64,000 bases of DNA from Methylocystis rosea SV97 (GTDB lineage Bacteria > Pseudomonadota > Alphaproteobacteria > Rhizobiales > Beijerinckiaceae): assembly GCF_000372845.1 (NCBI RefSeq), contig NZ_KB889963.1:1174146-1238145 (forward strand), given 5' to 3'. The notes below the pieces were generated by a model, which was not told where the DNA came from, did not search any database, and saw only the letters and a list, made by a program, of their open reading frames with translations. The position numbers and the translations under genes were made by a program. Of this stretch, positions 50,646 to 61,628 are shown piece by piece. Position 1 is the first letter of the stretch; each line of letters begins with the position of its first letter.

Positions 50646-51689
50646 ATGACGCGCGCGTCGCCTTGGTGGGCTCGGGATGTTTATGCCGACCGCAAGCCCT
50701 TTCTCAAGGCGCGGGCGGCGATCGCCGCCGCCACCCGCCGCTTCTTCGCCGCGGAAGGCTTCGCCGAGGTCGAAACGGCCGCGCTTCAGCTATCCGGCGG
50801 CAATGAAACGCATCTTTCGGCCTTCGCGACGGAGTTGATCGGCTCGGCCGGCGAGCGGAGCCGGTTTTATCTCCATACTTCGCCGGAATTTTCCTGCAAG
50901 AAGCTGCTCGCGGCGGGCGAGGAGCGGATTTTCACCCTTGCGCATGTGTTCCGCAATCGTGAGCGCTCCGCCCTGCACCATCCGGAATTCACCATGCTGG
51001 AGTGGTATCGCGCTGAGGCGCCGACGCTGCGGCTGATGGAGGATTGCGCTGGACTGCTGGCGAGCGCGGCGCGGGCGGCGGGCGCGACGGATTTCGCCAG
51101 GATGGGCAGCGTTTGCGATCCCTTCGAAGAACCGCAGATCATCAGCGTCTGCGACGCCTTTGCGACCCACGCCAGCATTGATTTGGAACCGCTGCTCAAT
51201 GACCGTGACGGACTCGCGCGCGCCGCCGCGCGGGACGGCATACGCGTCGTCGAGGACGACAACTGGTCGGATCTGTTCAGCAAGATCATGTCCGAAAAGA
51301 TCGAGCCTATGCTCGGTCGCGAGCGGCCGACGATCCTGACGGATTATCCGGTGAGCGAGGCGGCGCTGGCCCGCGCCAACGCCGATGATCCGCACTTCGC
51401 CGATCGCTTCGAACTCTATGTCTGCGGCGTCGAGCTCGCCAACGGCTTCGCCGAACTGACCGACGCGGCGGAGCAACGCCGGCGCTTCGAGGCGCAGATG
51501 CAGGAGAAGCGCCGCATCTACGGCGAGACCTATCCGATCGACGAGGATTTTCTCGCCGCTCTGGCTGAGATGCCGCCGGCCTGCGGCGTCGCGCTGGGCT
51601 TCGACCGGCTGGTGATGCTCGCGACGGGAGCGGCGCGCATCGAGCAGGTGCTGTGGACGCCAGTGGCCGAGCGCGGCACGGCGCCCTAG
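50646..51689 (+). CDS. epmA: EF-P--(R)-beta-lysine ligase
   Basis: The 347-residue enzyme is a truncated class II lysyl-tRNA synthetase without the anticodon domain. It attaches lysine or beta-lysine to EF-P. Motif 2 lies in FTLAHVFRNRERSALHHPEF, with YLHTSPEFSCKKLLAAG before it, and motif 3 in GVALGFDRLVMLATGA. Length fits EpmA/PoxA. It is divergent from efp, with a 96-base shared promoter region. The aminomutase EpmB is not in the window. Confidence 0.95.
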   Translation: MTRASPWWARDVYADRKPFLKARAAIAAATRRFFAAEGFAEVETAALQLSGGNETHLSAFATELIGSAGERSRFYLHTSPEFSCKKLLAAGEERIFTLAHVFRNRERSALHHPEFTMLEWYRAEAPTLRLMEDCAGLLASAARAAGATDFARMGSVCDPFEEPQIISVCDAFATHASIDLEPLLNDRDGLARAAARDGIRVVEDDNWSDLFSKIMSEKIEPMLGRERPTILTDYPVSEAALARANADDPHFADRFELYVCGVELANGFAELTDAAEQRRRFEAQMQEKRRIYGETYPIDEDFLAALAEMPPACGVALGFDRLVMLATGAARIEQVLWTPVAERGTAP

Positions 51690-51823
51690 TTCTCATTCGA
51701 ATAAACGACGCGACGCTGGCGCAAACGTCCTACGCTGGCAATGACGTCCATATTTGGCGCCATTTGGCGGCGAACGCGAGCGATGCGCGCTCGCACGCCG
51801 CGCATGATTTCATGGAGGGCGCG

Positions 51824-53299
51824 ATGGGCCTTAAATTATTGCTGAAATCTATCGTGGCGATCGCCGTGACGATCGCGACAGCCGCCATGGCGCAGCAGAG
51901 CGAAGCGCCCGCAGCGCCGGCCACGCCCGTCTCCACCTTCGACGACAAGCTCGTGAAAATTGGCGAGCAGGCGCCTGGCTTCGGCGGGATGTATTTCGAC
52001 GAGAAGGGCGCGCTGCAGGTCTATATGAAAAACGCCCCCGAACTACGCAGCGCGGACGCGATGAAATCTGCGCGGTCGCAGGTCACGTCGGCCATCGCCA
52101 GCGTGCTCGGCGCGGATTTCCTGGCGCAAAACGCCGCCGCCAAAGGCCGCGCTCAAGAACCGAACATCATCAAAGGCGACTACGACGTCGTCGAACTCGC
52201 CAAATGGAAGAAAAGCTTCAGCCCGGCGCTCGACGGCCAGGAGATCGTCTTCGTCGATCTCGACGAACGCCGCAATCGCGTGACCATCGGCGTCGTCGGC
52301 GATCCGTCGCGACAAAGATTCGAAGCTCTGGCGAAATCGCTCGGCGTTCCGTTCGAAGCGCTGATCATCGAAGAAACGCAGCCGATCCGTTTTCACGCCT
52401 CGTTGCGCGATAAACGTCGGCCGGTGCCCGCCGGCGTTCAGATCGAAATCGACACCGGCGTTTTCGCCTTTAAGCTCTGCACGCTGGGCTTCAATGTCGT
52501 GCGCAACGGACGCGACGGCTTCGTGACTAATTCTCACTGCACCAAGAATCGCGGCGTCAGCAATGACGACGATTTTCATCAGCCGAACGATCCGCTGCTT
52601 TCCGGCAATAAGATCGGCGATGAGGATAGCGATCCGCGATACTTCACCGGCGGCGTGTGCCCATCGGGCAAGAAATGCCGCTTCAGCGACAGCGCCTACG
52701 CCGATTATCGCATCGACCGCGGGCGCTTCGAAATCGCGCGAACGACGAACAATACCGGCTCGCTGACGATCAACGGCTCTCCGAGCACATTTCTGATCGT
52801 CAGCGAGACGCCGGACTCCGTGGTGGGCATGAGGCTCAACAAGGTCGGCCGCACGACGGGCTGGGCCTTCGGCGACGTGCGCGCGACCTGCATCGACGTC
52901 AATGTCGCGGACACCGACGTCAGGCTGCTGTGCCAGAGCCGCGTCGGCCGGGTGAGCGGGACGAACAAGCTGACGGACAATGGCGACAGCGGCTCGCCCG
53001 TCTTCTCCATCCTGCCGACCGGCAGTCAGGCGAGCCTGCACGGCATTTTGTGGGGAGGACCGGACGATGGCAGCTCCTTTGTCTTCAGCCCGATGAGCAT
53101 GATCGAGCAAGAGCTCGGAGATCTCACCACCTTCACCGCGCCACGGCCTCCGCCGCCCCCGCCGCCAGAGCCGACGCCGCGGGAGCAGTGCCTGCGGGAA
53201 TGCAACGCCGAGCGGGACGCCTGTCTCGCCGATGGCGGCCTGGGGTCGCAGTGCATCCCCGCCTGGCGGCGCTGCCGGGAGCAATGCCCGGCGCGGTAG
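51824..53299 (+). CDS. Secreted trypsin-like serine protease with Cys-rich tail
   Basis: The 491-residue protein has a signal peptide (LKLLLKSIVAIAVTIATAAMA). After a propeptide-like region of about 170 residues comes a chymotrypsin-fold domain with the triad His238 (VTNSHCTKN), Asp294 (YADYRID) and Ser389 (NGDSGSPVF). A Pro-rich linker (PPPPPPPEPTP) leads to a tail of 39 residues with six Cys (453-491), a pattern of possible three disulfides. ATG 51824 follows GGAGGGCGCG; 57 upstream codons are not part of the signal. The substrate is unknown. Confidence 0.85.
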   Translation: MGLKLLLKSIVAIAVTIATAAMAQQSEAPAAPATPVSTFDDKLVKIGEQAPGFGGMYFDEKGALQVYMKNAPELRSADAMKSARSQVTSAIASVLGADFLAQNAAAKGRAQEPNIIKGDYDVVELAKWKKSFSPALDGQEIVFVDLDERRNRVTIGVVGDPSRQRFEALAKSLGVPFEALIIEETQPIRFHASLRDKRRPVPAGVQIEIDTGVFAFKLCTLGFNVVRNGRDGFVTNSHCTKNRGVSNDDDFHQPNDPLLSGNKIGDEDSDPRYFTGGVCPSGKKCRFSDSAYADYRIDRGRFEIARTTNNTGSLTINGSPSTFLIVSETPDSVVGMRLNKVGRTTGWAFGDVRATCIDVNVADTDVRLLCQSRVGRVSGTNKLTDNGDSGSPVFSILPTGSQASLHGILWGGPDDGSSFVFSPMSMIEQELGDLTTFTAPRPPPPPPPEPTPREQCLRECNAERDACLADGGLGSQCIPAWRRCREQCPAR

Positions 53300-53439: not shown

Positions 53440-53474
53440 CAGAGGCGGCTGTTTTACCTGGCCGGCCTTTGAAC

Positions 53475-55295
53475 ATGCAGCTGCGCAACATCGCCATCAT
53501 CGCCCACGTCGACCATGGCAAGACCACGCTCGTCGACCGCCTGCTCCAGCAGTCGGGCGCGTTCCGCGAGAACCAGCGCGTCGCCGAACGCGTGATGGAT
53601 TCGAACGACCTCGAAAAAGAGCGCGGCATCACCATCATGGCGAAGGCCACGTCCATCACCTGGAAAGACGTGCGCATCAACATCGTCGACACGCCCGGCC
53701 ACGCTGATTTCGGCGGCGAGGTGGAGCGCATCCTGTCGATGGTCGATGGCGCCATCGTGCTCGTCGACGCCGCCGAAGGCCCGATGCCGCAGACGAAATT
53801 CGTCGTCGGCAAGGCGCTCAAGATTGGCCTGAAGCCGATCGTCTGCGTCAACAAGGTCGACAAGCCCGACGCCCGCGTCTCGGAAGTCGTCAACGAGGTG
53901 TTCGATCTCTTCGCCGCGCTCGACGCGACCGACGAGCAGCTCGACTTTCCGATCATATACGGCTCCGCCAAGCAGGGTTGGATGGCCGAGGAGCCGACCG
54001 GCCCGCAGGACGGCATGGCGCCGCTCTTCGATCTCGTCGTCAAACATGTGCCGGCGCCCACCGTCGAGGACGGTGGCTTCCGCATGCTCGGCACGCTGCT
54101 CGAGGCCAATCCCTATCTCGGCCGCATCATCACCGGCCGCGTCTTCGCCGGCAGCGTGAAGCCCAATCAGGCGGTGAAGGTGCTCGACCGCACCGGCAAG
54201 ATCGTCGAGCAGGGCCGCGTGTCGAAAATTCTCGCCTTCCGCGGCATCGAGCGCCAGCCGATCGACGAGGCGGAGGCCGGCGACATCGTCGCCATCGCCG
54301 GCCTTGAAAAATTCAACGTCGCCGACACGCTCTGCGCGCTGGAAGTCAACGAGCCGCTGCAGGCGCAGCCGATCGATCCGCCGACGCTCTCCATGACCTT
54401 CCTCGTCAATGACAGCCCGCTCGCGGGCACGGAAGGCGACAAGGTGACGAGCCGCATGATCCGCGCGCGCCTCTTCAAGGAGGCCGAAGGCAATGTCGCG
54501 CTGCGCGTCGAGGACGCGCCGGCAGGCGACGCCTATATCGTCTCGGGCCGCGGCGAATTGCAGCTCGGCATTCTGATCGAGACCATGCGCCGCGAGGGCT
54601 TCGAGCTTGGCGTCTCGCGCCCCAAGGTCGTCTTCAAGAAGGATGAGAACGGCGAGATCCTCGAGCCGATCGAAGAGGTCGTCATCGACGTCGACGAGGA
54701 GCATAGCGGCGTCGTCGTGCAGAAGATGAACGAGCGCAAGGCCGAGATGATCGAGATGCGCCCGTCGGGCGGCAATCGCCTGCGTCTCGTCTTCCATGCG
54801 CCGACGCGCGGCCTCATCGGCTATCAGGGCGAACTTCTCACCGACACGCGCGGCACGGCGATCATGAACCGCCTGTTCCATGAATATGCGCCCTACAAGG
54901 GCGAGATTCAGGGCCGCCGCAACGGCGTGCTGATCAGCAATGATTCCGGCGAGGCCGTCGCCTACGCCATGTGGAAGCTGGAAGATCGCGGCCCGATGAT
55001 GATCGAGCCGGGCTGGAAGGTATACAAGGGCATGATCGTCGGCGAGCATACGCGCGACAATGATCTCGAGATCAATGTGCTCAAGGGCAAGCAGCTCACC
55101 AACATCCGCACCCAATCGAAGGACGAGGCGGTGCGCCTGACGCCGCCGATCCAGATGACGCTGGAGAAGGCGCTGGCCTATATCGAGGACGACGAGAGGG
55201 TGGAAGTGACGCCGAAGTCGATCCGCCTGCGCAAGGTGTTTCTCGACCCCAACGACCGCAAGAAGGCGAAGGGCAAGGCCGCGCTGGTGGAGTGA
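53475..55295 (+). CDS. typA: Translational GTPase TypA/BipA
   Basis: The 606-residue ribosome-associated GTPase aids 50S assembly and stress growth. G-domain motifs are [38 protein letters not shown], and [11 protein letters not shown]. Two EF-G-like domains and the BipA-specific C-terminal domain ([26 protein letters not shown]) follow. ATG 53475 (MQLRNIAII) is chosen; a TTG two codons upstream is possible. It ends ten bases before the convergent SIR2 gene. Confidence 0.97.
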
Positions 55296-55305
55296 GGGGG
55301 CTCAG

Positions 55306-58300
55306 TCAGTCTTCTGCGTTGGTATGATCGGGAACCTCGATTTCGAAGTCGAGGTAATTCTTGATCAGACCAATATCTCCGATTTCGGTCCAAGCGCGCC
55401 GAGCTTCATCGCGCAAGGACGCGCGCTTAGCTTCGTCAACTTCGGTTAGGCTGGCGCAAAACGCCCGCCAACCTGGCGCCGCCAGTTTGGTTGGATGGCT
55501 CGCTTCGAGCTCTAGTATTTTGTTGACCGCTTCAGGCAGACGAGAGCGGTCGCCCCGAAAAGCGGCGATTTGCGCAAGGCGCAAGTGGCTGTGGGCGATG
55601 CCCCATTGCTCGCCAAGCGACTCATATGACTGCAACACCTGAGTAAAAGTTCTTTCGGAGCGAGTGGCGTCTCGTCTCATTTCGACTTGCCCGATCGAAT
55701 AGTTCGCGTTTGTCTCAAGCAGTCTTGTGGCAATCTTCCGGGAGATATCGCGCGCCTCCCGGAGATAGGTTTGGGCGGCGTCCAGATCGTCGCGTCTTAG
55801 CGCCAGATCGCCCAGTGATTGAAGCGCATTCGTCCTCCCAATCCGATCGCCGATCTGGAGGCCGATATCGCGCGCCTCCTGGAGATAAGTTTGGGCCGTA
55901 TCCAGATCGTCGCGTCTTAGCGCCAGATCGCCCAGCGATCTAAGCGTATTCGCCTGCCCGAGCCGGTCGCCAATCTTATGGTAGATGTCGCGCGCGTCTT
56001 CGAGAGAGGTTTGAGCGGCGTCCAGATTGTTGCGTCTTAGCGCCAGATCGCCCAGCGATCTAAGCGTATTCGCCTGCCCGAGCCGGTCGCCAATCTTATG
56101 GTAGATGTCGTGCGCGTCTTCGAGAGAGGTTTGAGCGGCGTCCAGATTGTTGCGTCTTAGCGCCAGATCGCCCAGCCTTCGAACCGTATTCGCCTGCCCG
56201 AGCCGGTCGCCAATCTTATTGTAGATGTCGCGCGCCTCTTCGAAAGAGTTTTGAGCGGCGTCCAGATCGTCGCGTCTGAGCGCCAGATCGCCAAGCAAAC
56301 TATGCGTGTTTGCCTGCCCGAGCCGGTCGCCGGTCTGGAGAAAGATGTCGCGCGCCTCTTCGAGAAGAGTGTGGGCGGTATTCATATCTTCGCGACAAAG
56401 CGCCAGAGAGCCCGCGGCATGAAATGCGTGAGCAACTGCGTTCTTGGACTCATTCGCATTGCGCCGTTGCAGCACCGACGCCAGCTTAAGAAACGTCGAC
56501 GGGTCAAAGCGCCGCTCCCCCATGGAAAGCTGTCGGGCTGACTCAATCGCTTGCCGAACCTCTCGAATCGGCTGATCGCGAGCAGCTTGGAGGAGGACCG
56601 GCGTAAAATTTCGTAGATGCGGCAGTAGTTCGGCCTCTGCCGCCGGCCACTTTGCCGTTCCGAAATACTTACCTTTTCCAGTTAGTTTTATTATCGCCCT
56701 TACAACTCTTTGAAGCTCCTCTCCTTTTAGCGGCCTTTCGATGCTCACGGCTTCACGTAGTGGATTAAGCAGCTTGATCGCGCCGTCCGCTCGGGGCGCG
56801 ACGAGCCGCAGACGGCGTAGAACTTCGTTGGCCGCGTCCGATTCGGTCGCTTTGATCCGGCGATCTTCTTGGCCGAGAAAGGCTTTCAACCCGCCTGCAG
56901 GGATGCCATCGGGGAGGAAGCCAAGAACGGCTAGGAGCCGCTTGGCTATTACAGTCATATGCCGGGAAGTGAGCGAAACGCGTAACGACGCCACGACCGA
57001 GTTGTGGCGATTTTCTTGTGCGCCCGGCTGGCGTAACAACTCGGCTTTCTCCTGTTCCCATCGCCTGAGCATTGGACCGAGCGTAAGATCGCTATCCACA
57101 CGGCTTGCCATGATCGTGAGCGAAAGCGCGTGACCGTCGAGTGCGATCAAGAGCGATTCGAGGTGCTGGTCGTCTTTCTGAACGTTCGTCGCGATCTTGC
57201 AAAAAAGATCGCGGCTTTCATTGAGAGCTAGCGGCGGTAAATCATCAATCTTTTCCCAATCCGCGAGAGCGGGCAGGCTTTCACGACTGGTGACAACAAA
57301 GGAGACGCCGGTCGTGTCTCTCAGCAAACCTAAAATGCGCCTGGCCTCGGGCTCATTGGCTTCGATCAAACCTTCAACATTGTCCAAGATTGCGAAGGTC
57401 GATTCCTGTCCACATGAGTAGCGAATGGCCGCAAGAGTGGCGCTCTGTGTCGGTTCCGGACTCAGTCCGAGTTCAGCGGCAAAAAGAATGAGTATATCAA
57501 GAGGGTCCGTGCGATTTTCGAGATTGACGAACACGCGTCTTTCGCCAAACTTTTTGATTAGCCTCTCATCATAACTCGCGGCGACCGCAACCGTTGATTT
57601 TCCCATACCCGGCCCACCGGTGATGAGGCATGGACGGCCTTCTGTCGCGGCTGTGACGACCCTGTTGATTTCGTCGCGACGTCCGACCGGATGCGGATTG
57701 GGGATTGCCAAATCGATGCGGTTGACTTTGGTCGCTGAGGTTTGAGGTTCCGAGTTTTCGGGAGCTAAACTTCGGAGGAATTCCGGCAGTTTTTCGTGCT
57801 TTGGCCCATAAGGAACTAAAGTGACGTTGTCTGGCCAGTCCGGCGTTTCCACCTCGTCGTCGGTGACTAATGCAAAGTGTTTCTTGTCTAACCCGCCCCA
57901 CGACGAACCGAACCAATTTAACAGACGCCCGACATTTTGATCCGCAAGGCCACTCGCAGAGCAGCCTATGAAGATAAGCGTATCGGCGAAGGCGGCTTGC
58001 TGCTGAAGAAATTGCGTACGATCACTACGTCCCACCCGATCGTAATCAGCCGTCGAAAAGATTACGGACTCTGGGTCATCCCAATATCCATGGATATGCC
58101 AAACATTCTGGGATTTTCCCGTCAAAATTTCGGCGACCGAGTCGGGATTACGCCAGGTCTTGGGCTGCACCCCTTTCTTCGTGCAAAGCAGGCCATCGTA
58201 ATTGGTTGTCGCGAGACGGCAGTTCAGTGCGATAATTGCGTCGAGTAGAGCGGGTTCACTCGCCTGTAGCTCGCCGACATTTTTCATCAGCCAAGCGCGA

Positions 58301-58572
58301 TAGCTATTGTTCGAGAAGCCTCCCAATTTTCTTTGAGCCATATCGGCTGAGGTGAGCCAAGCGTCAGGATCTTTCCGCTTCAGTCCCTGTCGGCAATGTT
58401 CGCTCCAATCTTCTCCAGGTTCTTTGGGAGCCGAATCGATCGCACTCTCAATGAGGCTTTTCCAGCCGGGCGCGGCTCCCCCAGTGACGGCCCTGCTTAC
58501 CCCTGCGCCGCAAACGATTAGAGCTTTCGCGCCAGATATAACGGTTCTGAGTGCTTCAATAGAATCAGACAT
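55306..58572 (-). CDS. SIR2-STAND ATPase-TPR protein (NLR-like predicted anti-phage defence)
   Basis: The 1088-residue protein has three parts. Residues 1-270 are a SIR2-like NAD-binding domain: CGAGVS (21-26), ATTNYD (121-126), WHIHGYWDD with His161, and FIGCS (201-205). Residues about 290-540 are a STAND/NB-ARC-type ATPase: Walker A GGPGMGKST (319-327), Walker B FAILDN (393-398), VVTSRES (426-432) and an ARC-like LPPLALNESRDLF. From about residue 710 a TPR array of 40-residue units extends to about 1025. The layout matches bacterial NLR-like defence proteins, whose sensor repeats detect phage and whose SIR2 domain destroys NAD. ATG 58572 follows AAGG; a TTG at 58593 is less likely. The base composition looks less GC-rich than the neighbours. 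It stands alone between two household genes. Confidence 0.88.
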   Translation of the reverse strand: MSDSIEALRTVISGAKALIVCGAGVSRAVTGGAAPGWKSLIESAIDSAPKEPGEDWSEHCRQGLKRKDPDAWLTSADMAQRKLGGFSNNSYRAWLMKNVGELQASEPALLDAIIALNCRLATTNYDGLLCTKKGVQPKTWRNPDSVAEILTGKSQNVWHIHGYWDDPESVIFSTADYDRVGRSDRTQFLQQQAAFADTLIFIGCSASGLADQNVGRLLNWFGSSWGGLDKKHFALVTDDEVETPDWPDNVTLVPYGPKHEKLPEFLRSLAPENSEPQTSATKVNRIDLAIPNPHPVGRRDEINRVVTAATEGRPCLITGGPGMGKSTVAVAASYDERLIKKFGERRVFVNLENRTDPLDILILFAAELGLSPEPTQSATLAAIRYSCGQESTFAILDNVEGLIEANEPEARRILGLLRDTTGVSFVVTSRESLPALADWEKIDDLPPLALNESRDLFCKIATNVQKDDQHLESLLIALDGHALSLTIMASRVDSDLTLGPMLRRWEQEKAELLRQPGAQENRHNSVVASLRVSLTSRHMTVIAKRLLAVLGFLPDGIPAGGLKAFLGQEDRRIKATESDAANEVLRRLRLVAPRADGAIKLLNPLREAVSIERPLKGEELQRVVRAIIKLTGKGKYFGTAKWPAAEAELLPHLRNFTPVLLQAARDQPIREVRQAIESARQLSMGERRFDPSTFLKLASVLQRRNANESKNAVAHAFHAAGSLALCREDMNTAHTLLEEARDIFLQTGDRLGQANTHSLLGDLALRRDDLDAAQNSFEEARDIYNKIGDRLGQANTVRRLGDLALRRNNLDAAQTSLEDAHDIYHKIGDRLGQANTLRSLGDLALRRNNLDAAQTSLEDARDIYHKIGDRLGQANTLRSLGDLALRRDDLDTAQTYLQEARDIGLQIGDRIGRTNALQSLGDLALRRDDLDAAQTYLREARDISRKIATRLLETNANYSIGQVEMRRDATRSERTFTQVLQSYESLGEQWGIAHSHLRLAQIAAFRGDRSRLPEAVNKILELEASHPTKLAAPGWRAFCASLTEVDEAKRASLRDEARRAWTEIGDIGLIKNYLDFEIEVPDHTNAED
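55723..56442 (-). repeat. Six 120-bp in-frame tandem repeats coding TPR units
   Basis: The SIR2-STAND gene holds six units of exactly 120 bases (40 codons) with the theme LGDLALRRDDLDAAQTSLEEA...DIYxKIGDRLGQAN. Bases 55921-56040 and 56041-56160 differ at one position only (C at 55991, T at 56111). Other units are more diverged. Two degenerate TPR-like units follow toward the C-terminus. The near-identity points to a recent duplication. Confidence 0.92.
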
Positions 58573-58574
58573 CA

Positions 58575-58606
58575 ACGGCCTTAACTTTTGCAAAAAGTTG
58601 GGCCGT
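58575..58606 (-). promoter_or_regulatory. Hairpin covering the ribosome-binding site of the SIR2-STAND gene
   Basis: ACGGCC (58575-58580) pairs with GGCCGT (58601-58606), and inside it AACTTTT (58583-58589) pairs with AAAAGTT (58593-58599). The hairpin ends two bases before the ATG. The AAGG Shine-Dalgarno sequence (58579-58582 on the minus strand) is partly in the stem. A TTGACT motif (58619-58624, minus strand) is a -35 candidate; its -10 would fall inside the palindrome. It may be an RNA hairpin or an operator. Confidence 0.55.
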
Positions 58607-58659
58607 CTTTTTCATGTTAGTCAAGTAACTTTTTGGAAGGACGAGGTCGCGCTGTGAGC

Positions 58660-58695
58660 CAAGTGGATGCCCGCGACAAGCGCGGGCATTACGGC
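58660..58695. repeat. Short palindromic dispersed repeat
   Basis: ATGCCCGCG (58667-58675) and CGCGGGCAT (58681-58689) form a perfect 9-bp stem with a 5-base loop, in the context GTGGATGCCCGCGACAAGCG. This text is a common dispersed repeat in alphaproteobacteria. It lies between the SIR2-STAND gene and the RNase T2 gene. Confidence 0.7.
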
Positions 58696-58744
58696 GTACT
58701 GAGCGAGAGCCGGATGCTCGGGTCCAAAGCTTTCCTAGCCCCGC

Positions 58745-59761
58745 CTACTGCAACCCCACTGCATCGACCACCCCGCTTGGGCAGCCGGGGTCCGTCGCCG
58801 GCGCGGCGGCGATGAGATCGGCGAGTTTGCTGTCCGGTTTGACGTCGCCCACCAATCCGATGGTCATCTCGACGATGAGATTGCGGCCGCCGTCTCGCTT
58901 GCAGCTGACGCGCACGCGATCCGCGGCGCCGTCGCCGAACGTCTCATTGAACGCCGCCTTGAGTTGGTCGCGCGTGACTTCCTCGCCGATATGCGCCGCG
59001 AAAAGCCCCTGAACCTTGGAGCTGTTCAGCTGAGATATCAGCGCGAGCATCCGTGAAAAATAGATTTCCGCCGCGCTTCCCGGAAAGCACGTGCCATGTT
59101 TGATCCACTCATGCCGTTCGAGCAGCGACATCGTTCCCGGCATGACTTCTGAAAGCGCATGCCTTGTCGCGTCGGAGAGTTCGGGCTCGGGCAGGCCGTT
59201 CCATCTGTTGTCCTTATCGGCGGCGACGATGTGGCGATCGACGTTGCAATATTGTTTTTTGGGCCAGAGCCCATGCAGCGTGAAATGCGTCGCGTCGAAC
59301 CGGTCGGGTCTTTGCGTTTCGCATTCCGTCTTGTCGGGCTTGCCTTCGCAAAAGGCCGGCTGCCAGCTCACGGCGAGGATGTAATCCGGCTTTTGCGCCG
59401 CGGGGCCGCCGTCAGGCTCTTGCCCGCCGGAGGCTTCTTCGCCGCCGCTCCCCGGCTGGCCGCCGCCCTCAGCGAGCGTCGCCTCGCCGCATCCGACCGC
59501 GACCCACCGGCGCCCCGGCTGAGCGTCGGGGACATCGATGAGATAATGCGTCGCATTCGGCTTGTTCTTGGCGAAAATGGAATAATGCCCATTCGGCTCG
59601 ACGCTGACATTGCCCGGATTGGCGCCGGTTCTGATCGATTGAAGCGCGGGACAGGACTGACGGGCGACGAAAGTTCCCGATGCAGGCGTATCCGCCGTCG
59701 CGCCTGAGGCGACGAGCGACAATGACGAGCAAAGCAAGAAGGGACGAGCAAATTTGCGCAA
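58745..59761 (-). CDS. Ribonuclease T2 family protein, secreted
   Basis: The 338-residue protein has a signal peptide (KFARPFLLCSSLSLVASGATA), an N-terminal region of about 100 residues with a Gly-rich spacer, and an RNase T2 domain. Both active-site blocks are present: CAS1 FTLHGLWPKK and CAS2 HEWIKHGTCFPG, each with its catalytic His. Such enzymes cut RNA with little base preference through a 2',3'-cyclic intermediate in the periplasm. Six or more Cys in the mature part could form disulfides. It lies upstream of the SIR2-STAND gene in the same direction, 172 bases from its start. Confidence 0.9.
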   Translation of the reverse strand: MRKFARPFLLCSSLSLVASGATADTPASGTFVARQSCPALQSIRTGANPGNVSVEPNGHYSIFAKNKPNATHYLIDVPDAQPGRRWVAVGCGEATLAEGGGQPGSGGEEASGGQEPDGGPAAQKPDYILAVSWQPAFCEGKPDKTECETQRPDRFDATHFTLHGLWPKKQYCNVDRHIVAADKDNRWNGLPEPELSDATRHALSEVMPGTMSLLERHEWIKHGTCFPGSAAEIYFSRMLALISQLNSSKVQGLFAAHIGEEVTRDQLKAAFNETFGDGAADRVRVSCKRDGGRNLIVEMTIGLVGDVKPDSKLADLIAAAPATDPGCPSGVVDAVGLQ

Positions 59762-59965: not shown

Positions 59966-60538
59966 CTAGCGGAAGAGATGCGCAATGGCTTGAAAGCCAT
60001 TGTCCGCTCCGATGCGAAGTGACGCTCCCAGAATTGCGCCAATGTAAGCAGCGATCGGGCTCAGGCCTATTACGGCGACGACAAATCCAGTGCCTGCGCC
60101 GATCAAAAGATCGTTGCCGCCTAAAGCGCCAATTCCTCCGCCGAAGACGCTGCAAAGGACGGCAACGACGGCTGTCGCCATCAGCGCGTGGAAACCGGCC
60201 AACACGCCTGCTCCCTTTACAATTTCCGTCGCTCCGGCGACGACCATTGCAGCAACGATTGCAGCTCGCGTTGTGTCAGGCAGATCGAGGCTGTCGGTCC
60301 GAAAAACAAACGCGATCGCGGCCATCAAACCGGCGGCCCACAAATCCTCTTTGGCGATATCCTGGGATAAACTCGGCACGCCGTATTTGGCGCTCACAAT
60401 CGAAAATCCAGCCGCTCCGCAAATCGCCCCCACAGACGGCGCGTCGGAAACGCCTGCTCCAGCCGCCGCGTAGGCGCATGCTATCGCGGCGATGATCGCC
60501 AGACCAATCCGCTTTGCCGCAGAATCTCGATCAACCAT
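59966..60538 (-). CDS. Membrane protein, possibly a divergent A24 prepilin-peptidase-like protein
   Basis: The 190-residue product has about five or six hydrophobic segments. Two Asp-containing motifs recall type IV prepilin peptidases: FRTDSLDLPDTTR (usual form 'IDLRxxxIPN') and GALGGNDLLIGAG (usual form 'GGGDxKL'). Both are imperfect, so the assignment is tentative and peptidase activity is not claimed. I chose ATG 60538 (MVDRDSAAKRIG); a GTG at 60616 is possible but overlaps rluD. The 204 bases behind it (59762-59965) hold nothing I can name. Confidence 0.5.
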   Translation of the reverse strand: MVDRDSAAKRIGLAIIAAIACAYAAAGAGVSDAPSVGAICGAAGFSIVSAKYGVPSLSQDIAKEDLWAAGLMAAIAFVFRTDSLDLPDTTRAAIVAAMVVAGATEIVKGAGVLAGFHALMATAVVAVLCSVFGGGIGALGGNDLLIGAGTGFVVAVIGLSPIAAYIGAILGASLRIGADNGFQAIAHLFR

Positions 60539-60605
60539 ATGCGCCGTGTGTTTTCGACAACGGATCACGCGCTCCCCAAAAAATAGCCCGAACGATAATG
60601 ACGCG

Positions 60606-61628
60606 TCACTGCTCACGCAACGCTTCCCTTAACTCGGCCAAATCCTCCGGCAGTTCGCTTTCAAACATCATTTCCTCTTTCGTCACCGGATGCTCGAACC
60701 CGAGCGTCGCGGCGTGCAGCGCCTGGCGGTCCAAACGCTCGACGATCTCGCGCGCGGCGGGCGTCAGTTTCGCGACCTTGGTTTTAAATCCCGCGCCATA
60801 AGTTTTGTCGCCGATCAGCGGATGGCCGATATGCGCCATATGCACGCGGATCTGATGCGTGCGGCCGGTCTCCAGCTGGCACCGCATGAGCGCCGCGACG
60901 CCGTAATCTTCGACCTTCTCCCAATGCGTGATCGCTTCGCGGCCGCGCGCTTCCGGCACCACCGCCATCTTTTCGCGCTGCGTCGAATGGCGGCCGAGCG
61001 GCGCGTCGACCGTTCCATGCGCGCGGTCGGGAACGCCCCAGACGAAGGCGAAATATTCGCGCGTCAGCGACAGTTTGCGGCCGTGGTCGGCGAAGAGGCG
61101 CGAGAGGCCATGATGCGCGGCGTCGGTCTTGGCGACGACCAACAGGCCGCTCGTATTCTTGTCGATGCGATGCACGATGCCGGGCTTCTTCACCCCGCCG
61201 ACGCCGGAAAGGCTGTCGCCGCAATGCGCGATCAGCGCATTGACCAGCGTGCCGCTCTCATGCGCGCTCGCCGGATGCACGACGAGGCCGGCCGGCTTGT
61301 CGATGACGAGGAGATGTTCGTCCTCATAGACGATGGCGAGCGCGATATCTTCGCCCTGCGGCTCGGCCGGAGTCGCCGGCGGCACGTCGAGCGTGACGTG
61401 ATCTCCGGCGCCGAGCTTCTTGGCCGGATCGCGCGCCGTCTCGCCGGCAAGGGTCGCGCGGTTGTCCTCGATCAGCCCTTTGATGCGGCTGCGCGACAGA
61501 TGCGCGGCGACGATCTCCGGCTGTTCGGCGAGAAAGCGGTCGAGCCGGGCGCCGGCATGCTGCGGCGCAACGAGAAATTCGAAGCGCTCGGCGGATGCGT
61601 CAATTTGAGGCAGAGCCTTGACTGTCAT
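60606..61628 (-). CDS. rluD: RluD-type ribosomal large subunit pseudouridine synthase
   Basis: The 340-residue enzyme has an S4 domain (ARLDRFLAEQPEIVAAHLSRSR) and a synthase domain with the catalytic Asp in GIVHRIDKNTSGLLVVAKTD, then LETGRTHQIRVHMAHIGHPL and LHAATLGFEHPV. It fits RluD, which makes the helix 69 pseudouridines at 1911, 1915 and 1917 of 23S rRNA. ATG 61628 (MTVKALPQI) is preferred to 61661. It is divergent from the flavoprotein gene. Confidence 0.92.
   Translation of the reverse strand: MTVKALPQIDASAERFEFLVAPQHAGARLDRFLAEQPEIVAAHLSRSRIKGLIEDNRATLAGETARDPAKKLGAGDHVTLDVPPATPAEPQGEDIALAIVYEDEHLLVIDKPAGLVVHPASAHESGTLVNALIAHCGDSLSGVGGVKKPGIVHRIDKNTSGLLVVAKTDAAHHGLSRLFADHGRKLSLTREYFAFVWGVPDRAHGTVDAPLGRHSTQREKMAVVPEARGREAITHWEKVEDYGVAALMRCQLETGRTHQIRVHMAHIGHPLIGDKTYGAGFKTKVAKLTPAAREIVERLDRQALHAATLGFEHPVTKEEMMFESELPEDLAELREALREQ

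Follow-up and report, generated by a model that had tools for sequence, protein, structure and literature searches.

A minus-strand gene in a 64,000-nucleotide window of the Methylocystis rosea SV97 genome (contig NZ_KB889963.1) probably encodes, in one protein, an NLR-like immune receptor directed against phages or other mobile DNA, a reading to which we give a probability of roughly 0.75. Built like the immune receptors of plants and fungi, the protein has by computation a SIR2_2 domain whose active-site residues are present, a STAND ATPase that includes a Walker A motif, and an array of tetratricopeptide repeats (TPRs), and the gene is an accessory one that sits at a variable site. We favour an immune receptor because the SIR2 domain lies nearest to KomC, ThsA, DSR2, and FAM118B and the full-length model matches STAND and NLR structures; because the gene is patchily present, shares its site with restriction-modification genes of other species, and has a lower GC content than typA; because relatives with the same ATPase have other N-terminal domains and the alleles are mosaics that differ in repeat number; and because mcrC is found close to a SIR2-NACHT relative carried by an Agrobacterium plasmid.

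Anatomy of the SIR2-STAND-TPR protein

The plus strand across the gene is full of stops, and the real frame runs on the minus strand, opening at the ATG given in Table 1 or possibly at a TTG at 58593. A chance reading frame is ruled out, as three domains score above curated cut-offs and open frames of 3.3 to 3.8 kb occur in three species. The gene is the sole match in its own genome at E 0.001, and a promoter scan returned no sigma-70-like site. A first-pass annotation of the window had described a 1088-residue protein that joins a SIR2 domain, a STAND ATPase, and a TPR array. Its size and coordinates stand, with the strand corrected to minus, and each of the three parts exceeds the cut-off set by Pfam.

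In the whole protein, the SIR2_2 match has an E value of 6.9e-14 (52.6 bits against a cut-off of 24.5). The motifs GAGVS, TTNYD, HIHG, and GCS, which the first-pass annotation had named, are all present, and most of their residues are nearly invariant in an alignment of 12 rows, two of which are fragments: G22, G24, S26, T122, N124, D126, H161, G162, and G203 are each conserved in at least 90%. Because large parts of this domain fell below a predicted local distance difference test (pLDDT) score of 60 in the full-length model, those parts were left unused and the domain was modelled again alone from the 12 aligned rows. The best of five models reached a pLDDT of 84.6 (the other four, 59 to 72) with a predicted template modelling score (pTM) of 0.85, and it has the SIR2 fold that structure prediction of the N-terminal region had been proposed to reveal. 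Its nearest Foldseek matches are human FAM118B (1.2e-10), the KomBC complex (2.6e-9), ThsA (6.4e-9), and DSR2 (6.8e-9), with TM-scores by query of 0.57 to 0.69 over the 50 rows listed, and a sequence profile of the domain finds the same group, KomC first (9.7e-48). The domain therefore combines a SIR2 fold with the GAGxS, TTNxD, and HG residues that mark the SIR2_2 defence NADases. The naming of these relatives as NADases follows PDB titles, and KomC, ThsA, and DSR2 are known as defence proteins. The role of FAM118 is taken from the available text of PMC12700824.

The ATPase matches Pfam AAA_22 (E 5e-8, 33.8 bits against a cut-off of 27) and is followed by a helical region and repeats, the arrangement of STAND and NLR-like proteins. 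Its Walker A motif, GGPGMGKS, is intact as first described. The same word is slightly generous for Walker B, which reads ILDNVE and has a single acid, D397, followed by N; the LDN is shared by 7/7 aligned rows. At the place where we presume, by eye, that an MHD motif would be expected, the sequence reads LNPLREA, and no histidine is found there in any of the seven rows. By Pfam this is not a plant-type NB-ARC domain (PF00931; 11.5 bits where 23.5 is required, E 0.18), although the model matches NB-ARC proteins, nor does it reach nSTAND3 (PF20720), which scores 15.7 bits where 27.2 is required (E 0.013) over a 32-residue stretch that surrounds the P-loop. SHV beta-lactamase matches the ATPase part weakly (E 0.12 to 0.3; NCBIfam E 0.033), and these matches were put down to chance.

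The full-length model has a mean pLDDT of 73.6 and a pTM of 0.44. Confidence is high for ATPase residues 301 to 490 (pLDDT blocks of 76 to 94) and for the greater part of the TPR region, and low for much of the SIR2 domain. The top Foldseek match is a solved STAND-TPR protein, 6mfv (3.3e-14), followed by the TPRs of LGN. Many TPR-only matches separate 6mfv from a lower group made up of a plant NLR resistosome (6j6i, presumably ZAR1; rank 27, 1.1e-7), Apaf-1 (rank 29, 1.9e-7), and the Avs5 filament (rank 32, 2.5e-7). Superposition over the full model is poor (TMq 0.18 to 0.30), as expected of a multi-domain model with a low pTM. By these matches the ATPase is of the NLR type, in agreement with the initial description of a STAND/NB-ARC-like domain. 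The regular array of 40-residue TPRs is likewise borne out, both by Pfam TPR_12 (E 1.5e-30, 105.6 bits against a cut-off of 30.1) and by a 120-bp DNA repeat of 5.3 copies with 86% matches at 55731-56365.

Table 1. Features of the gene and its flanks, in window positions; residues are those of the 1088-residue protein.
Feature	Position	Strand	Residues and basis
Whole SIR2-STAND-TPR gene	55306..58572	-	1088 aa; ATG at 58572, stop 55306-55308
SIR2_2 domain, predicted NADase effector	57748..58572	-	1-275; Pfam SIR2_2 E 8.5e-15 (domain alone)
GAGVS motif	58495..58509	-	22-26
TTNYD motif	58195..58209	-	122-126
HIHG motif, presumed catalytic H161	58087..58098	-	159-162
GCS motif	57958..57966	-	203-205; G203 nearly invariant
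STAND ATPase and following helical region	56503..57726	-	283-690; AAA_22, seven-row alignment; model pLDDT lower after 490
Walker A GGPGMGKS, K325	57595..57618	-	319-326; G319, G322, G324, K325 invariant in seven rows
Walker B-like region, D397, N398, E400	57373..57396	-	393-400; L, D, N, E invariant in seven rows
TPR region	55609..56448	-	709-988; TPR_12, 40-residue scan, helix pairs in model
Five near-identical 40-residue TPR units	55729..56328	-	749-948; number varies by allele
C-terminal helical tail	55309..55608	-	989-1088; descent differs between alleles
typA/bipA flank, conserved edge of site	53469..55295	+	Pfam BipA_C
RNase T2 family gene, other edge in close relatives	58745..59761	-	Pfam Ribonuclease_T2; synteny

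An accessory gene at a variable site downstream of typA

The gene is rare. Six of the 61 genomes searched, its own included, contain a match. Among 37 of the same genus, three (the window genome, G004, and G015) match over the length of the protein, and matches in G038, G044, and G045 are confined to the TPRs at 17 to 27 bits. The SIR2 domain and ATPase are both matched in 5 of 298 genomes in a family sample (the same three together with G592 and G519), where G592 has the gene in two pieces at contig ends and G643 matches residues 14 to 313 only. In the order and phylum samples the two domains occur together in 1/397 and 1/398, each time in the window genome, and the other genomes match one domain. 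Presence in 3/37 genus genomes rules out a core gene, and the conserved synteny across the order that was originally named as evidence against a defence role was looked for in these samples and is not seen. Matches in plasmid records are also few (17/72,556), and none extends over 80% of the query. In G519 (L120 8517-11718, plus strand), the SIR2-STAND-TPR gene lies in three overlapping frames and is therefore broken, either as a decayed gene or through sequencing errors.

The gene sits downstream of typA, between it and an RNase T2 gene. typA is present in 37/39 genus genomes, partially in some; G012 and G027 were left out because they have paralogue-level typA matches only, and the survey of the site therefore covers 37 genomes (the window and 36 others). 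The far flank, taken as RNase T2 or as RluA where RNase T2 was not found, is in view in 26 of these, and contig ends or another gene order account for the other 11. The gap after typA is at most 364 bases in 12 of the 26 genomes, 837 to 1206 bases in four, and at least 2.7 kb in ten. Three of the ten long gaps hold the gene described here (window, G004, and G015). The cargo of G026 is made up of Vsr, a C5 methyltransferase, an IS1595-type transposase, and an Eco29kI-type restriction enzyme, while in G009 and G022 the stretch from typA to RluA holds an MmeI-like type IIG enzyme, that of G022 being assigned solely by similarity to the G009 enzyme (two aligned stretches, 80 and 60% identical). 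In G021 one of several genes matches AbiEi weakly (2.3e-5), and G002, G030, and G454 hold genes that are not defence-like by eye and were left unscanned.

Three other species thus have restriction-modification genes at the equivalent position, and in close Methylocystis relatives the site is empty. No evidence from context speaks more strongly for a defence role than this sharing of a site. Taken across positions 55295-58745 and the same place in loci L076, L083, L100, L075, L072, and L079, the site may be empty or may carry restriction-modification genes, a weak AbiEi match, the SIR2-STAND-TPR gene, or other cargo. No precise insertion end was found, as about 190 bases of different intergenic sequence occupy the empty sites of G018, G016, and G013. 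The GC content of the gene is 54 to 59%, compared with 62 to 67% on the typA side; it is 59 to 61% in the RNase T2 gene and the next kilobase and 64 to 70% beyond.

Two neighbouring frames may be mentioned here. A 216-residue open frame between RNase T2 and RluA (59966-60616, minus strand) has no Pfam or PADLOC match and no tblastn match in 20 other genus loci; it is perhaps a second strain-specific insert or a non-gene. Beside typA, the gene at 51653-53299 (plus strand) encodes a protein with a GDSGSP motif that is trypsin-like by eye, with a sub-threshold Nal1_C match as its only Pfam result, and its silent divergence (dS) of 0.26 to 0.32 is faster than that of the other flanking genes measured.

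Mosaic alleles and a small ATPase clade

The three Methylocystis alleles (window, G004, and G015) encode 1088, 1250, and 1250 residues and contain 5, 9, and 9 near-identical TPR units, as hand-chosen from a 40-residue profile scan with low-scoring end units dropped; the raw output of the scan is 8, 13, and 13 units, of which some are doubtful. Self-identity at a 40-residue shift over 100 residues is 87, 91, and 89%, respectively. The available text of PMC4986451 describes fungal NLRs with "high internal conservation," in which NB-ARC or NACHT domains are joined to TPR, ANK, or WD repeats. All three bacterial alleles reach the fungal threshold, which asks for 85% identity or more across 100 residues or more, and they also differ in repeat number, as fungal alleles do.

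Silent divergence is uneven along the gene. Over the SIR2 domain, dS between the window allele and G004 is 0.135, like that of most flanking genes (0.08 to 0.22), and between the window allele and G015 it is 0.44. At the C-terminus, G004 and G015 are separated by a dS of 0.05 and the window allele is about 1.0 from both. The maximum chi-square for one sharp change of site pattern is 183.7, and 0/1000 permutations scored as high in a test that treats sites as independent. The change is placed after residue 744 with residues 749 to 948 left out, and its position is therefore within the TPR array or adjacent to it. Given the uneven divergence and this sharp change, the alleles are mosaics, and the sensor part looks recombined between related species.

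In a tree of ATPase domains, a clade of seven (99/98 support) is separate from nine rows interpreted as DNA-binding regulators, of which three were Pfam-checked with Trans_reg_C and the rest named by eye; G592 is absent from the tree, and one further row, G090, attaches to the clade through a long branch. The regulators, which we take to be MalT/AfsR-like, have a similar ATPase core, and two of the three that were checked have TPRs, but they differ from the window protein in their DNA-binding N-terminus and their separate grouping. The SIR2 rows within the clade are the window protein, G004, G015, and G519 (96/92). G745 and G875 start with a helix-turn-helix-like segment, called by eye and by similarity (HTH_3 in G875 has an E value of only 0.014, and G745 has no Pfam helix-turn-helix match). 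The N-terminus of G551 has no Pfam match and is related by PADLOC to PDC-M54A (4e-9), LmuA (3.7e-8), and HamA (7e-5), a likeness that would point to a nuclease; its gene (L121 8163-11147, plus strand) has the same ATPase-TPR frame behind this other N-terminus. Judged by sequence, then, a small STAND clade pairs the same ATPase with SIR2, helix-turn-helix, or another predicted N-terminal domain. Full-length matches to the ATPase profile occur in 3/397 order genomes at E <1e-200 (the window genome, G745, and G875), all of which are themselves rows of the profile. Near-identical TPRs over 100 residues are also present in G745 (85%) and a G592 piece (90%), and are not found in G875 (32%), G551 (30%), or a G519 piece (49%). 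The G745 gene (L122 8704-11649, plus strand) has about ten nearly identical 40-residue TPRs by eye and is a candidate for repeat-number change.

Mechanism, competing explanations, and significance

The order SIR2, STAND, and TPR has already been described for Avs5 (AVAST type 5; SIR2-nSTAND3-TPR/Sel1/PPR). According to the available text of PMC12931631, Avs5 needs its SIR2 active-site and ATP-binding residues, hydrolyses nicotinamide adenine dinucleotide (NAD) on sensing a phage protein, and has a repeat domain that is reported to be essential for activation. By analogy, the window protein at rest would be closed and inactive until an invader protein binds the TPR array. Binding of ATP would then allow the ATPase to oligomerize, and the oligomer would juxtapose the SIR2 domains so that NAD is cleaved and the infected cell is stopped. 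The protein thus probably destroys the NAD of the cell on sensing an invader, and changes in TPR number and recombination between alleles may alter what is sensed.

Several observations weigh against an immune receptor. No match was found in 50,697 phage records and none was confirmed in a viral-contig scan, which reaches close relatives only, so there is no sign that phages carry the gene and the idea of a phage-borne gene is unsupported. The neighbourhood survey for defence genes that the first-pass annotation had suggested gave a divided result: the corresponding site carries restriction-modification genes in three species, but in the window no defence gene lies directly beside the gene. 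The connection to defence therefore depends on what other species carry at the corresponding site, and for two of these, G009 and G022, no RNase T2 flank was found. Nor is the gene alone in its low GC content, since the RNase T2 side is also lowish. Amino acid-changing divergence (dN) is below dS in every part of the gene, so positive selection is not demonstrated. Variability along the TPRs shows no significant concentration at the seven positions that we take to be the canonical ligand contacts (mean entropy 1.09 versus 0.88, p = 0.18), in a test made by position only rather than on coordinates, and ligand-face hypervariability was rejected on this basis. Finally, the helix-turn-helix-like close relatives and the distant DNA-binding regulators indicate that the ATPase-TPR frame is not specific to defence.

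The last of these points leads to an unlikely alternative, although it survives better than the others, in which the protein is a non-immune STAND signalling protein, such as a metabolic or peptide sensor, whose SIR2 domain makes a signal or modifies proteins. Three checked Trans_reg_C regulators among the distant ATPase relatives, two close relatives with a helix-turn-helix-like N-terminus, and TPRs that resemble those of the cell-polarity protein LGN/GPSM2 would all suit such a role, yet it fits poorly with an accessory gene whose site also takes restriction-modification genes and with a SIR2 domain nearest to defence NADases.

It is rather improbable that the protein is simply a diverged Avs5. 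Both are single proteins with an N-terminal SIR2_2 domain (PF13289), a central STAND ATPase, and C-terminal helical repeats, here of the TPR type, and they share Walker A and the GAGxS and TTNxD motifs as given in the available text of PMC12931631, where three tested Avs5 homologs are only 18 to 21% identical to each other. The Avs5 filament is also among the structural matches of the full model. Where the window protein has HG, PaAvs5-1 has NG, although by the same text HG occurs in about half of Avs5 homologs. Further differences are the ATPase, which is not nSTAND3 by Pfam, so that membership of Avs5 was not assigned, and the regular, near-identical 40-residue TPRs. No Avs5-named model is found among nine PADLOC matches to E 1, the content of the library for Avs5 being unchecked, and the SIR2 profile finds KomC, ThsA, FAM118B, and DSR2 first, with one weak match to 9jap (869 aa, 1.1e-11). 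The ATPase groups with helix-turn-helix and other proteins in a separate small clade, in a tree that includes no Avs5 sequences, and this bears on the question, left by the first-pass annotation, of whether homologs cluster with Avs5 or elsewhere. The same annotation had suggested a poorly described subtype on the basis of domain order; order alone is not new because Avs5 has it, but the type of ATPase and the behaviour of the repeats do differ.

Other SIR2 proteins resemble the window protein in part. ThsA, DSR2, and KomC share the SIR2 domain by sequence profile and fold but, to our knowledge, have no STAND-TPR part like that of the window protein. SIR2-NACHT proteins of Azotobacter and Agrobacterium plasmids (L030 6001-9186 and L032 4115-8862) have a SIR2 domain 28 to 30% identical and a STAND-type ATPase, which differs in being NACHT, and HEAT repeats in Azotobacter. 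The Agrobacterium locus has its SIR2 domain in two pieces flanking an IS3 transposase gene, with mcrC nearby.

The likeness to fungal NLRs extends to repeats at least 85% alike over 100 residues, allelic variation of repeat number, and signs of recombination, as far as the available text of PMC4986451 describes them. It differs in that the window protein is bacterial and has a SIR2 effector, "sirtuin" being absent from the main text of that paper, in that variable positions do not fall significantly at ligand positions, and in that the alleles here were compared between species. Least probable of the alternatives is a self/non-self or competition gene not aimed at phages (compare the NLRs of heterokaryon incompatibility in fungi, or a system that guards against plasmids or gene transfer agents), which would draw on the fungal-like mosaic alleles and repeat numbers and on the NLR-like system that controls gene transfer agents in Caulobacter in the available text of PMC13236601, but no partner, immunity, or transfer gene was found among the neighbours examined.

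With an immune receptor as the preferred reading, the open-access literature was searched for earlier descriptions. Judged by title and the start of the abstract, the papers found on high internal conservation in NLRs are all on fungi, although prokaryotes were part of the search, and none of the papers listed, which in one search were the best 8 of 710, describes this ATPase clade, though an earlier description elsewhere is possible. As far as searched, then, the separate ATPase clade with varied N-termini and the mosaic bacterial alleles with variable numbers of near-identical TPRs are new. A bolder proposal, which we hold tentatively and at somewhat less than even odds, is that the family parallels, in bacteria, the rapidly evolving NLRs of fungi: it would be a small STAND-TPR receptor family separate from Avs5 that swaps its N-terminus (SIR2, nuclease-like, or helix-turn-helix) and renews its sensor through TPR number and allele recombination at a typA-adjacent defence site. 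If this is true, differing repeat arrays would let closely related Methylocystis strains detect different phages. The three alleles occur naturally at a single site in close relatives and combine a common effector and ATPase with sensor arrays that differ, and the number and content of repeats as a basis of specificity can therefore be approached by simple comparison of alleles. They bear on how bacterial NLR-like receptors keep pace with changing phages, and a clade that combines one ATPase-repeat frame with varied N-termini bears on how such receptors are assembled.

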